The notes beneath the pieces were generated by a model that was given only the letters and a program-made list of their open reading frames with translations, had not been told where the DNA came from and did no database searches. Both the position numbers and the translations under genes were made by a program. A stretch of DNA of 41,973 nt from an archaeon BMS3Bbin15 (GTDB lineage Archaea > Hydrothermarchaeota > Hydrothermarchaeia > Hydrothermarchaeales > BMS3B), in the NCBI GenBank assembly GCA_002897955.1, contig BDTY01000114.1:1-41973 (forward strand). Reading direction: 5' to 3'. Shown piece by piece: positions 2,930-8,366 of the stretch (the stretch's first letter is position 1; each line of letters starts with the position of its first letter).

Positions 2930-3190
2930 ATGGATTTAAAGTTTGCGCTTATTGCTGGTCTTGTTGTTGTTGTTTTTACATTTTACTATCTTGAGAAGGA
3001 AATATCGAAAACTGAAATTTTCTGGCTGTACTCTGGTCTGGCAATTCTGATGGGCTTTATCTCACTCTACAATGTAACCTATAGCAGACAGGGTTTTGAA
3101 TATTATATACTTATGGGTGTCTTTTTTGTTTTCATGGCTTCTCTATACTTAGAAGAAGGAGAGACTAATGCAGCAGGAAGAGCTACATAG
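2930..3190 (+). CDS. small three-helix membrane protein
   Basis: This 86-residue protein starts MDLKFALIAGLVVVVFTF and has three predicted membrane helices: residues about 4-21, 31-53 and 62-79. A short acidic tail rich in glutamate follows. It starts one base after the GGGP synthase stop and overlaps pheS by 23 bases, so it is embedded in a tight operon. An in-frame ATG 12 bases upstream (2918) is possible but would overlap the preceding gene. I do not recognise the family. Its place after a lipid synthesis gene is suggestive of a membrane role, but that is inference. Confidence 0.7.
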   Translation: MDLKFALIAGLVVVVFTFYYLEKEISKTEIFWLYSGLAILMGFISLYNVTYSRQGFEYYILMGVFFVFMASLYLEEGETNAAGRAT

Positions 3191-4670
3191 GCATGAAAAG
3201 CTTGTTCTGAAGGCTCTCGACAGGCTTGAAATAGCCTCTCCAGAAGAAATAGTTGAAGAGGCTGGAATAGAGCTTAGCAGTGTTAACAGGGCAGTTTCAT
3301 GGCTTTCTCTTAAAGGACTTGTGGAAGTCGAGGATTTTGAGGATAAAACTCTTGAAATTGGAGAAGAAGGTAAGGTTTATGTAGAAAAGGGCCTGCCTGA
3401 AAGGCGCGCACTTGAACTGCTTAAGGAAAAGGGTGAAATAGAGCTTAAGGAACTCAATTCCGTTCTCAGCAGGGATGAGGTAACTATTGCTCTCGGCTGG
3501 CTGAGAAGAAAGAATCTTGCTGTAATCGACTCAGGAGTACTCAAACCAACCGATAAAGGTATTAAAGAAAGGGAAACGCCTGATGAGAACCTTCTTCTAA
3601 GGGTTATGAAGGAAGGCAGGTTACTGGAGAGTACTCTCAGCCCGGAGCTCAAGCAGGCTGCAGAACTTCTTAAGGGAAGAAAGAATGTAATTAAAATTCA
3701 TGAAGTAAGCCACAGGAAGATAAAACTAACAGAAAAAGGTAAAAAAACAATCAAACAGGGAATCAAGATTGAGGATGAAATTTCTCAACTTACCCCTGAG
3801 ATTATCAAGAATGGAACCTGGAAGAATATGAAATTCAGGCGCTATAGTATAAACACCCCTGCACCCGAACTTCTACCTGCAAAGCTTCACCCTCTGCGGG
3901 AGATTGTAGAGGAAATCAGATGGATTTTTCTTAAGATGGGCTTCAATGAAATATCCGGTCCGATGGCAGAATCAGCCTTCTGGAATTTTGATGCCCTCTT
4001 TGTGCCTCAGGACCATCCTGCAAGGGAGATGCAGGACACTTTCTATCTCTCAAACCCTGAAAAGGCAGAACTACCTTCCGATGATATTATAGAGGCTGTC
4101 ATGAGTGCCCATGAAAGTGGATGGAAGACTGAAAGCAGGGGCTGGCGCTACAGGTGGAGCAGAGAAAAAGCAATGGCAAGTGTTCTCAGGACACATACAA
4201 CCTCCACAACCATAAGATACCTTGCTGAAGGTCATGAGTTACCTTTTAAAGTCTTCTCACTTGGCAGAGTTTTCAGAAATGAAAGGATATCCTTCAAGCA
4301 TCTGCCAGAATTTCATCAATGTGAGGGTATTGTAGCCGGTGATGTGAGTTTTTCTCATCTTCTGGGCATACTTAAAAAATTCTACAGCACAATGGGTTTT
4401 TCTCATGTGAGATTCAGGCCTGCCTACTTTCCCTACACAGAACCCTCTCTCGAGGTGGAAGTCTTCCTTGAGGATAAAGGTAAATGGATGGAGCTGGGAG
4501 GAGCAGGAATATTCAGACCTGAGGTTACCGAACCTCTGGGTATACATAAACCTGTTCTTGCCTGGGGCCTTGGGCTCGAGCGCCTTGCCATGCTCCGCCT
4601 TGGGCTAAAAGATATAAGACAGCTTTATATGAGTGATTTTAACTGGCTCAGAAGAGCAAAGGTGATTTAG
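3168..4670 (+). CDS. pheS: phenylalanyl-tRNA synthetase alpha subunit
   Basis: This is the catalytic alpha chain of the alpha2beta2 class II PheRS. The N-terminal 200 residues hold winged-helix repeats typical of archaeal and eukaryotic PheS, for example HEKLVLKALDRLEIASPEEI. The catalytic core shows motif 2 as RVFRNERISFKHLPEFHQ and motif 3 as GLGLERLAMLRLGL near the C-terminus, with GGAGIFRPEV between them. Length (500 residues) is usual for archaea. The ATG follows AAGGAGAG by a few bases. The start lies inside the preceding membrane-protein gene and the stop is one base before pheT, so the two PheRS subunits are co-transcribed and probably translationally coupled. Confidence 0.98.
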   Translation: MQQEELHRHEKLVLKALDRLEIASPEEIVEEAGIELSSVNRAVSWLSLKGLVEVEDFEDKTLEIGEEGKVYVEKGLPERRALELLKEKGEIELKELNSVLSRDEVTIALGWLRRKNLAVIDSGVLKPTDKGIKERETPDENLLLRVMKEGRLLESTLSPELKQAAELLKGRKNVIKIHEVSHRKIKLTEKGKKTIKQGIKIEDEISQLTPEIIKNGTWKNMKFRRYSINTPAPELLPAKLHPLREIVEEIRWIFLKMGFNEISGPMAESAFWNFDALFVPQDHPAREMQDTFYLSNPEKAELPSDDIIEAVMSAHESGWKTESRGWRYRWSREKAMASVLRTHTTSTTIRYLAEGHELPFKVFSLGRVFRNERISFKHLPEFHQCEGIVAGDVSFSHLLGILKKFYSTMGFSHVRFRPAYFPYTEPSLEVEVFLEDKGKWMELGGAGIFRPEVTEPLGIHKPVLAWGLGLERLAMLRLGLKDIRQLYMSDFNWLRRAKVI

Positions 4671-4671
4671 A

Positions 4672-6315
4672 ATGGCAGTTATAAAGCTCAACCTGAGAGA
4701 CCTGAATAAACTTTCAGGCTTTGAAATTGAAAAAGAGGAGCTTATGCAGCGTTTGCCCCTTTTAGGATGCGATATTGAAGGTATTGATGAGGATTATATA
4801 TATGTAGAATTCTTTCCAAACCGTCCAGATTTATACAGTGTGGAAGGTGTGGCAAGGGCATTAAGAAATTTCTTTGGTTTCGAGAAGGGGCTCAGGGAGT
4901 ATAAACTTCTTCCTCCAAGAACTTATATTGAGGTGGATGAAAGTGTTGAAAAAATAAGGCCTTATGTTGTCTCCTGTGAAGTTGAAAATGTCAGACTGAA
5001 TCATGAACTTATTCAGGAGCTGATGGACCTGCAGGAAGACCTTCACTGGGTTCTCGGCAGGGATAGAAAAAAAGTTTCAATAGGTGTACATGACTCCTCA
5101 GGAGTTAAGCCGCCTTTCAGATATACCGCTCTCGGAGACAGAGACATCAAGTTTGTCCCTCTGGGCATGGAAGAGGAGATGAGTCCAGTGCAAATTCTCG
5201 AAAAACATCCCAAAGGTAAGGCTTATGCCCATATTATCTCTGGACACAGCAAATATCCCTTTATTCTTGATTCAGAAGGGAATGTTCTTTCCCTGCCTCC
5301 CGTAATAAACGGTGAACTAACAAAGGTGAGCGAAAAAACCGAGAAACTCTTTGTGGATATAACAGGTACTGACTTTGACTTAATATCTAAGGCTCTGAAT
5401 ATTTTAAGTACAGCCTTCCTTGAAAGAGGCTTCAGGGTATATCAGGTTGAGGTGAGATATAAAAATAAAACAGTTATAACCCCGGATTACACTCCCGAGG
5501 AGAAGGACATCTCCCCCGATTATGTGAATAATATTCTTGGACTTTCCATATCAGGCGAAGAAGCTGCTGAAGCTCTTGAAAGAATGGGTTACGGAGTTTT
5601 CTCAGCAGGAAACAGCCTGAAGGTAAAAATACCTGCATACAGGAGCGATATATTTCATCCTGTGGATATTGTTGAGGACATTGCCATAGGGTATGGTTAT
5701 GAGAATTTTGATGCAAAGCTTCCTGATATAGCCACAACAGGTGAAGAGAACTCTCTTGAAGAGAAATGCAGGAAGCTGAGAAAGCTTCTTGTAGGTTATA
5801 GTCTCAGTGAAATTATGAGTCTCATGCTTTCCAACGAAAAAGAGAATTTTGAAAGCATGCTTGTTGAAGGAGAGGCAGTCACAATCAAAAATCCTATAAG
5901 TGAAGACCATACGATAGTGAGAACATCTCTTTTACCAAGTCTTCTGAATGTTCTGAGAATTAACAGGCACCACGAGCTTCCTCAGAAGATTTTTGAGATT
6001 GGAGACATACTCATACCCTGTAAAGAACTGCCAGAAGGTGCAAAAGCTGAGAGACACCTTGCTATCGTACTTATTCATTCAAAAGCTGGCTTCACTGAAA
6101 TTAAATCTATGGCAGAAGCTTTGATGAGAGACCTCGGGCTGGAATATAAGATTGAAGCAGAGGAGCACGGCAGCTTTATTCCCGGAAGATGTGCCAGAAT
6201 AGTTGCAGGAGGAAAGCCAGCAGGATACTTTGGGGAACTCAGGCCAGAAGTTATTACAGCCTTTGACCTCGAGTATCCTGTTGTTGCCATGGAGATTAAT
6301 CTTGAGCAGATATAA
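4672..6315 (+). CDS. pheT: phenylalanyl-tRNA synthetase beta subunit
   Basis: This is the beta chain of PheRS, needed for assembly, tRNA binding and editing. The 547-residue protein has the archaeal layout: an N-terminal B1-like region (VEFFPNRPDLYSVEGVARAL), the B3/B4 editing fold, a B5 domain around HPVDIVEDIAIGYGYENF and a catalytic-like domain at the C-terminus. The bacterial N-terminal EMAP-like domain and the C-terminal anticodon-binding domain are absent, as expected for archaeal PheT. It starts one base after pheS. The gap to metG is 35 bases and contains that gene's ribosome binding site, so pheS, pheT and metG probably form one transcript. Confidence 0.97.
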   Translation: MAVIKLNLRDLNKLSGFEIEKEELMQRLPLLGCDIEGIDEDYIYVEFFPNRPDLYSVEGVARALRNFFGFEKGLREYKLLPPRTYIEVDESVEKIRPYVVSCEVENVRLNHELIQELMDLQEDLHWVLGRDRKKVSIGVHDSSGVKPPFRYTALGDRDIKFVPLGMEEEMSPVQILEKHPKGKAYAHIISGHSKYPFILDSEGNVLSLPPVINGELTKVSEKTEKLFVDITGTDFDLISKALNILSTAFLERGFRVYQVEVRYKNKTVITPDYTPEEKDISPDYVNNILGLSISGEEAAEALERMGYGVFSAGNSLKVKIPAYRSDIFHPVDIVEDIAIGYGYENFDAKLPDIATTGEENSLEEKCRKLRKLLVGYSLSEIMSLMLSNEKENFESMLVEGEAVTIKNPISEDHTIVRTSLLPSLLNVLRINRHHELPQKIFEIGDILIPCKELPEGAKAERHLAIVLIHSKAGFTEIKSMAEALMRDLGLEYKIEAEEHGSFIPGRCARIVAGGKPAGYFGELRPEVITAFDLEYPVVAMEINLEQI

Positions 6316-6350
6316 TTATACCTGAATAAAAACTTAAAGGAGGTATTTAG

Positions 6351-8366
6351 ATAGCCGATAGAATACTTGTCACCTGCGCCTTACCCTATGTGAATAATGT
6401 GCCCCATATTGGAAATATAGCAGGCTCTCACCTGCCTGCCGATATCTTTGCAAGATTCTGCAGAATGGCTGGCTACGAAACTGTTTTTATTGGAGGGAGT
6501 GATGAGCATGGCACCCCCATAGAAGTAGCTGCCCAGAAGCTGCAGGTAAGCCCGGAGGAGCTAACCGGTAAATATTATCGGGTGCATAAAGAAATCTACA
6601 ACTGGTTCGATATAAGCTATGACAACTTCTCAAGAACATCACTTCCTGTGCATCATGAGACAACAAAAGAGTTCTTTCTTAAAATATATGAGAATGGCCA
6701 TATAACAGAGGGCAAACTGGTGCTGCCTTATTGCAGGCACGATAAACGTTTCCTACCTGACCGTTATGTCACAGGCATATGCCCAAAATGCGGCTATGAA
6801 AGGGCAAGGGGGGACCAGTGCGAGAACTGCTCCACACTGCTCAATCCTGATGAACTCAAAGAGCCAGAATGTGTAATATGCGGGAATACCCCTGAATTCA
6901 GGAAATCAACACATCTCTTTCTTAATCTGGACAGACTTCAACCACAGCTTGAAGAGTGGATAGAGTCAAAAAAAGGTGTTTTTTCCCCCCAGGTTTATAA
7001 ACTTGCCAGAGGCTGGATAAAAGAAGGCTTGAAACCGAGATGCATAACAAGAGATTTAAAATGGGGAATTAAAGTTCCACTCAGAGGTTATGAAGACAAA
7101 GTCTTCTATGTGTGGTTCGACGCACCCATAGGTTATATCTCCTCAACCAAAGAATGGGCGGAAAAGACAGGAAAAAAAGAAAAGTGGAATGAATTCTGGA
7201 AGGGGAAGACAAAGATTTTTCACTTTATTGGCAAAGACAATATACCATTTCATACAATCTTCTGGCCATGTATGCTCATAGCCAATGGAGAATATAATCT
7301 GCCTTACAATGTTGCAGGATTACAGTATCTTAACTATGAAGGCGGTAAGATTTCAAAATCAAGAGGCTTTGGTATATTCTGTGAAAATCTACCCCAGACA
7401 GAACTCAGCAGTGACCTGTGGCGTTTTTATCTTACTTATCTTATTCCCGAGACTGATGACACTGAATGGAAATGGAAAGAGTTCAGAGAGAGAGTGAACA
7501 ACGAGCTTGTTGCAAACCTCGGAAACTTTATACACAGAACAATGAGCTTCATCCAGCGTTACTTTGATGGCAGGGTGCCTTGTGCTAAACTTGAAGAAGA
7601 GGATAAGAAGGTTATAGAAGAGGCAAATCGTATAAAAGAGGAGTATAAGGGGCTTATCTGGAATATTCATCTAAGAGATGGTATGAGAAAACTCCTTGAA
7701 CTCTCTGATATATGCAATAAATATTTCCAGAAGCAGGAACCCTGGAAAAGTATAAAGGAAAATCCTGAGAGAGCGAGAGCTTCCCTATATACCTGTGCAA
7801 ATCTCTGTTATTATCTTGCTGTGCTCATGCACCCTTATTTACCAAAAGCTTCGAGAGAAGTTTTTAAAATTCTTGGCACAGAACAGGGAAAGCTCGAAGA
7901 TGTGGGAGAACTAAAAGTAGAGGGAGAGCAGAAGATAGGCAGAGTAAAGATTCTCTTTCAGAAGATTGATAATAAAACCATAGAAAAGGTAAAAAAGATT
8001 ACATCAAAGGTTACGAGGTTTGACGAGATGTTTGCTGAAGAAAAGCTAATAAACTATGAGGATTTTTCAAAGCTTGATATAAGAGTGGCCAAGGTGCTTA
8101 AAGCTGAAAAGGTAAAGGATGCCGATAAACTTCTCAAGCTCAGGGTGAGTCTTGGCAGCGAGGAAAGGCAGATAATCGCAGGTTTGGCTGAGCACTACAC
8201 CATAGAAGAGCTTGAAGGAAAAAAGGTAATTCTGCTGGTAAATCTCAAGCCAAGAAAAATCAGAGGAGAGGTGAGTCAGGGAATGCTTCTGGCTGGTATT
8301 TCAGAAGATAAAGTTTCACTCTTAATTCCTGACAGAGATATAAAGCTGGGGAGTAATATAAGCTGA
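6351..8366 (+). CDS. metG: methionyl-tRNA synthetase with C-terminal tRNA-binding domain, probable AUA start
   Basis: This class I synthetase charges tRNA-Met. HIGN is at residues 19-22, KISKS at 333-337, and the zinc cysteines fall in CPKC, CENC and CVIC at about 144-177. The last 105 residues form an EMAP-II-like tRNA-binding domain (FSKLDIRVAKVLKAEKVKDA). The family N-terminus xADRILVTCALPYVNN is fully encoded, but the codon in first position is ATA (6351-6353). The codon before it is TAG, and AAAGGAGGT (6336-6344) is spaced 6 bases ahead. The next in-frame GTG at 6390 would remove part of the nucleotide-binding fold, so AUA initiation or a single-base error is the likely explanation. It converges with the permease, 6 bases between stops. 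Confidence 0.95.
   Translation: MADRILVTCALPYVNNVPHIGNIAGSHLPADIFARFCRMAGYETVFIGGSDEHGTPIEVAAQKLQVSPEELTGKYYRVHKEIYNWFDISYDNFSRTSLPVHHETTKEFFLKIYENGHITEGKLVLPYCRHDKRFLPDRYVTGICPKCGYERARGDQCENCSTLLNPDELKEPECVICGNTPEFRKSTHLFLNLDRLQPQLEEWIESKKGVFSPQVYKLARGWIKEGLKPRCITRDLKWGIKVPLRGYEDKVFYVWFDAPIGYISSTKEWAEKTGKKEKWNEFWKGKTKIFHFIGKDNIPFHTIFWPCMLIANGEYNLPYNVAGLQYLNYEGGKISKSRGFGIFCENLPQTELSSDLWRFYLTYLIPETDDTEWKWKEFRERVNNELVANLGNFIHRTMSFIQRYFDGRVPCAKLEEEDKKVIEEANRIKEEYKGLIWNIHLRDGMRKLLELSDICNKYFQKQEPWKSIKENPERARASLYTCANLCYYLAVLMHPYLPKASREVFKILGTEQGKLEDVGELKVEGEQKIGRVKILFQKIDNKTIEKVKKITSKVTRFDEMFAEEKLINYEDFSKLDIRVAKVLKAEKVKDADKLLKLRVSLGSEERQIIAGLAEHYTIEELEGKKVILLVNLKPRKIRGEVSQGMLLAGISEDKVSLLIPDRDIKLGSNIS

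Follow-up and report, generated by a model that had tools for sequence, protein, structure and literature searches.

The gene for methionyl-tRNA synthetase (MetRS) in the archaeon BMS3Bbin15 appears to start with AUA, and non-AUG start codons recur on this same gene in other archaea. On the sequence evidence described below, the assignment of AUA at position 6351 as the true start codon is well supported. Because the AUA codon is conserved, and because non-AUG starts recur on this one gene, it is likely that selection has maintained a regulatory weak start on MetRS. The window (the entire stretch of 41,973 nucleotides that was analysed) lies in contig C114 of genome G000, a draft assembly of 1.74 Mb in 123 contigs that is 98.6% complete.

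The start region reads AAAGGAGGT (6336-6344), the spacer ATTTAG (6345-6350), ATA (6351-6353) and then GCC GAT AGA ATA CTT GTC, and translation from ATA would give the N-terminus IADRILVTCALPYVNN. A perfect GGAGGT Shine-Dalgarno (SD) sequence thus lies 6 bases ahead of ATA, and spacings of 6-7 bases are the commonest among canonical genes of the same genome (22/31). The TAG at the end of the spacer is in frame, which excludes a start farther upstream in the MetRS frame. The original prediction had described an AUA start directly behind a stop codon and 6 bases behind a strong SD, with GTG at 6390 as the next usable start. All of these bases are present as described, and the GTG, at codon 14, is the first ATG, GTG or TTG in frame. 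Features of the region are collected in Table 1.

Table 1. Positions of the MetRS start region and the neighbouring genes within the window.
Feature	Position	Strand	Remarks
pheS (PheRS alpha)	3168..4670	+	normal ATG start
pheT (PheRS beta)	4672..6315	+	5' neighbour of MetRS; normal ATG start
Spacer between pheT and MetRS, 35 nt	6316..6350	+	no unusual fold around the start
Shine-Dalgarno sequence of MetRS, GGAGGT	6339..6344	+	within AAAGGAGGT 6336-6344; 6-7 bases is the commonest SD spacing in canonical genes of this genome
In-frame stop TAG just 5' of the start	6348..6350	+	read from the sequence; also present in G001
ATA, putative start codon of MetRS	6351..6353	+	ATA at the same place in 10/10 f1 genomes
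MetRS (671 aa), including a Trbp111-like domain at its C-terminus	6351..8366	+	profile and homology matches
GTG, earliest canonical in-frame codon	6390..6392	+	not accepted as the start; replaced by GTA in sister genome G001/SZUA-158

The encoded protein was identified as MetRS by full-length model matches above curated cut-offs. It matches NCBIfam PRK00133 from residue 3 (7.3e-242; 804.7 bits, cut-off 587), as well as metG (596.6, cut-off 336.35) and metG_C_term (128, cut-off 116.65), and the alignment with the MetRS of P. abyssi (1rqg) begins at residue 4. No canonical in-frame codon is available 5' of the conserved N-terminus, and the SD lies at a normal distance from the ATA.

Conservation was evaluated in ten genomes of f1, the GTDB family of the window genome, among which G001 (SZUA-158) belongs to the same genus as G000; the metagenome-assembled genome SZUA-158 is assigned to Hydrothermarchaeota in a published study (PMC6946796), a placement that extends to the window. 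ATA occupies the SD-fixed place in all ten, at a spacing of 6 bases in nine of them and of 7 in G005, and the SD itself is GGAGGT in nine and GGAGGC in G007. Between f1 genera, third-position identity at identical residues is 0.37-0.43, which indicates that these positions are saturated, and homologous isoleucine codons agree in about half of the cases (from 6/14 to 17/26). Since third positions differ and isoleucine codons agree only about half the time between genera, the uniform ATA does not merely reflect recent divergence. The genome is a draft of 123 contigs, and ATA could in principle be an ATG that was misread in sequencing or in building the consensus. However, the identical codon in 10/10 f1 genomes, and again in record QIGD01000142.1, refutes this explanation, whose probability we regard as negligible. 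The comparison of sister genomes proposed in the original prediction, for which ATG in all close relatives would have signalled such an error, thus favours AUA, as none of the ten carries ATG.

The same genomes bear on whether translation instead begins at GTG 6390 to yield a shorter MetRS, for which the argument is that this is the first canonical in-frame codon in the window. A start there would remove the conserved strand RILVTCALPY, and G001 has GTA at the corresponding position. In 8/10 f1 genomes no ATG, GTG or TTG occurs before codon 11, whereas codon 5 is a GTG in G005 and G009, off the SD distance and missing from the other family members. The earliest canonical codon shifts among codons 5, 11, 14 and 17 across f1, and in no case does a normally spaced SD precede it. 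Given a position that is not conserved, incorrect SD spacing and the loss of a conserved strand, we rejected this start as very improbable.

Across the phylum, 23 genomes were searched and the MetRS start region was present in 20 (it is missing in G014, G017 and G022). Start codons at this location are ATA in the ten f1 genomes and ATG in G011, G012, G013, G015 and G020. The remaining five carry a GTG within the SD together with an odd codon at the SD distance, which is ATA in G018 and G019, ACG in G016, and ATT in G010 and G021; in the latter two genomes, canonical codons are also present farther upstream. Separately, the MetRS leader of genus g2 (L011, L012, L016, L036) is longer and contains inverted repeats of the GGAACC..GGTTCC type, as well as CCTCC stretches with the potential to base-pair with the SD, although this leader is shorter in G006 and absent in the window. 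Genus g2 (L045, L046, L048-L050) also encodes a separate Trbp111-like tRNA-binding protein divergently from MetRS, in addition to the fused C-terminal domain.

A within-genome control used sampled stretches of five genomes (G000 with the window added, G002, G139, G080 and G049), in which codon-usage gene calling produced 652 gene models (128, 224, 128, 117 and 55, respectively). Genes were flagged if a six-base SD is placed before an in-frame codon other than ATG, GTG or TTG that itself lies 5' of the earliest canonical codon, a definition that places SD-less genes outside the control. This procedure flagged 22/652 models, including MetRS once in each genome. Sixteen of the 17 other flagged genes have a Pfam match, which in every case starts no earlier than the first canonical codon (L214 has none), whereas the MetRS domain begins ahead of that codon (G000, G139, G049). 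MetRS is therefore the only gene found among these models to have a domain-supported, SD-placed start other than ATG, GTG or TTG. In G000 and G080, MetRS does not stand out by coding score alone; as judged by these matches, domain and homology evidence sets it apart where the score fails.

To assess recurrence, we searched 257 archaeal genomes and found the N-terminal MetRS stretch in 238. The survey covered part of the listed matches (80 regions) plus loci from the phyla of G139, G049, G071 and G132, and thus is not a random sample. A script classified 192 genomes (G324, G325 and G339 were left out), of which 138 have a canonical codon near the MetRS start, 32 have none within 12 codons, and 22 have a GTG only inside the SD. 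Six of the 32 (G154, G167, G262, G263, G293, G328) were set aside because a canonical codon lies farther upstream or a usable SD was not seen. The 26 strict cases that remain among the 192, each lacking ATG, GTG or TTG near the start and having an odd codon placed by an SD, represent seven families in at least five phyla: eight are from f1, 13 from f27, and one each from f35, f46, f69, f95 and f113 (G049, G071, G132, G205 and G299 make up the cases outside f1 and f27). Their SD-placed codons are ATA (9), ATT (6), ATC (6), TTC (3), TTT (1) and GTA (1). A single-base error could be hidden in G205, and the SD spans only 5 bases in G132 and G071.

Family f27 exhibits the same tendency with different codons. 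Non-canonical starts were found in 16 of its 18 members with the region (ATT 7, ATC 8, TTC 1), the exceptions being G266 (ATG) and G271 (probably GTG), and these codons mostly reside at an equivalent spacing of 8-9 bases, the value most often found in canonical genes of G139 and G080. The single-contig genome G139 (L197, L232) has the frame AGGTGA ATC ACC TTC GAA, with TTC, the apparent MetRS start, at the usual spacing of that genome, and its relatives have ATT or ATC in place of this TTC. Another example is G049, where MetRS apparently starts with GTA (L249:8440-8442), or with the codon that precedes L249:8440, immediately behind an in-frame TAG and with GGAGGT six bases ahead. In the same survey, one MetRS match (G073, L350) includes one in-frame TGA, and two MetRS-like genes adjoin each other in G329, G335 and G341.

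The 22 genes with a GTG inside the SD allow another interpretation. In these lineages, which do not include the window, the GTG might start a leaderless mRNA, such that only the cases lacking GTG would be unusual. TATA-like boxes were seen by eye approximately 32-33 bases before the GTG in G183, G051, G059 and G145, as this interpretation would predict. However, 20/22 of the genes have ATA, ATC, TTC, TTT or ACG exactly at the SD-placed codon, compared with a background of 11.6% of codons; the nominal binomial value of 3e-17 applies to a set that was chosen after seeing the data and to genomes that are related. Moreover, the odd codon keeps a fixed distance from the SD even as it varies from 1 to 8 codons before the conserved motif, and the GTG is wholly missing in some relatives, for example G071 and the members of f27. 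Leaderless initiation in these lineages is accordingly an appreciable possibility, although we regard it as the less probable one.

Other parts of the survey concern the role of the SD. Among the 138 ordinary genes, 23 show some match to an SD but lack a canonical codon at the corresponding distance; these include G005, G009, G027, G145, G131, G314 and G156, along with likely chance SDs. The leader GGAGGTGATAAAA is common to G341 (L330) and its relative G329 (L328), where the same SD is followed by ACG in the former and ATG in the latter. MetRS genes that lack an SD begin with ATG in 64/82 instances, a predominance consistent with the idea that weak codons need an SD to be tolerated.

Rfam searches gave 41 tRNA matches in G000 and 30 in G139, and in both genomes the initiator-type tRNA (L389, L365) has a CAU anticodon and a GGG/CCC anticodon stem. 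An initiator tRNA whose anticodon is complementary to the odd codon was not found among the tRNA genes of these two genomes; their initiators look ordinary, and an altered initiator anticodon was rejected. The protein aIF1 destabilizes complexes on non-AUG codons and thereby contributes to archaeal start-codon discrimination, according to a published study (PMC6237735). A circuit between MetRS and an aIF1 gene with an odd start was also rejected, because the aIF1 genes that were read in this phylum begin with ATG; the draft genome G013 has two aIF1 (SUI1) genes (L085 and L104). Six leaders were folded without revealing a conserved regulatory structure at the MetRS start (z-scores +1.14 to -1.69), and a GGAACC..GGTTCC hairpin in the leaders of G002 and G008 is missing from G006.

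Considered together, these observations suggest, with somewhat better than even confidence, that an AUA start is kept weak by selection on a strong SD so that MetRS output depends on start-codon stringency. The SD would park a 30S subunit on the MetRS message at AUA, which the ordinary initiator Met-tRNA (CAU) could read through weak pairing. The weak codon would then lower and modulate initiation, and MetRS synthesis might follow stringency as set by aIF1 activity and the supply of aIF2-GTP-Met-tRNAi. If selection maintains the weakness of the start rather than one particular codon, this would account for the drift of codons between families. Reading by a near-cognate initiator is less natural for UUC and UUU, which have two mismatches to CAU. 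A weak start is also not essential, since MetRS begins with ATG in many archaea, including 5/20 members of this phylum with the start region.

The weak AUA start might instead merely fix a constant low level of MetRS, without any sensing of the initiation state. A weak codon alone reduces yield, the similarly weak UUG is common as well (5/13 canonical SD-placed MetRS starts), and the exact codon drifts between lineages, all of which this simpler explanation accommodates. Yet a weaker SD or promoter would be a simpler means to this end, whereas a strong SD is retained beside the weak codon, and recurrence on one gene in many lineages suggests a specific reason. We therefore view a constant low level as unlikely, although it deserves consideration.

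The original prediction, borne out as regards the AUA start, also suggested feedback control comparable to that through AUU on bacterial IF3, but the sign of such a loop is doubtful. Low MetRS would be expected to reduce Met-tRNAi and to penalize weak starts more than others, whereas simple homeostasis would require the opposite sign, and so a loop of this kind is doubtful unless elongator tRNAs start at the odd codons. The latter arrangement, a fail-safe in which the elongator tRNA that normally reads the codon (Ile AUH, Phe UUY, Val GUA) permits MetRS to be made when Met-tRNAi is scarce, would give the feedback the right sign. To our knowledge, elongator-tRNA initiation of this kind is not known in archaea. 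The codons of all 26 strict cases avoid NUG, as such a fail-safe would favour, and the loss of initiator tRNA genes in E. coli permits initiation by elongator tRNAs, as described in a review (PMC7949028). The middle U, however, is kept in every strict-case codon, which is expected if CAU reads them, and we judge the fail-safe to be improbable. A broader proposal is that the initiator has little or no ability to read the codon from which MetRS is made, with UUC as the extreme, such that synthesis of the enzyme senses initiator supply or stringency, perhaps by elongator-tRNA initiation when Met-tRNAi is scarce. This would be an undescribed circuit, and we offer it only tentatively.

If non-AUG MetRS starts are confirmed, AUA, AUU, AUC and apparently UUC would widen the range of start codons that archaeal ribosomes accept, and MetRS would provide a natural readout of how faithfully initiation proceeds. 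Gene-finding programs restricted to ATG, GTG and TTG will truncate MetRS in such genomes. The findings also raise the testable question of whether the amount of MetRS, as the source of initiator Met-tRNA, is set by start-codon stringency in archaea.

A non-AUG MetRS start was not found in the literature searched, which mostly comprised sources other than subscription journals. The common prokaryotic GUG and UUG starts are likewise weak yet accepted after an SD, including in some of the MetRS genes examined here, but they are standard, unlike AUA, AUU, AUC, UUC, UUU and GUA, which in the sampled stretches were found only on MetRS. Eukaryotic eIF1, the counterpart of aIF1, is autoregulated through a weak start that is coupled to stringency. 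In that system an AUG in poor context resides on the fidelity factor itself, whereas here aIF1 starts with ATG and MetRS carries the weak start. The infC gene for IF3 similarly is an essential translation gene retained on a non-AUG start, and changing its AUU to AUG abolishes autocontrol. However, IF3 is a bacterial factor that directly examines the start codon, while MetRS only charges tRNA and thus is not a product that controls start-codon discrimination; its codon also drifts to UUC, UUU and GUA. The recurrence of odd starts on MetRS nevertheless points to conserved weak-start control of a basic enzyme. The closest precedent known is infC with its AUU start, which involves another gene, another domain of life and a different set of codons.
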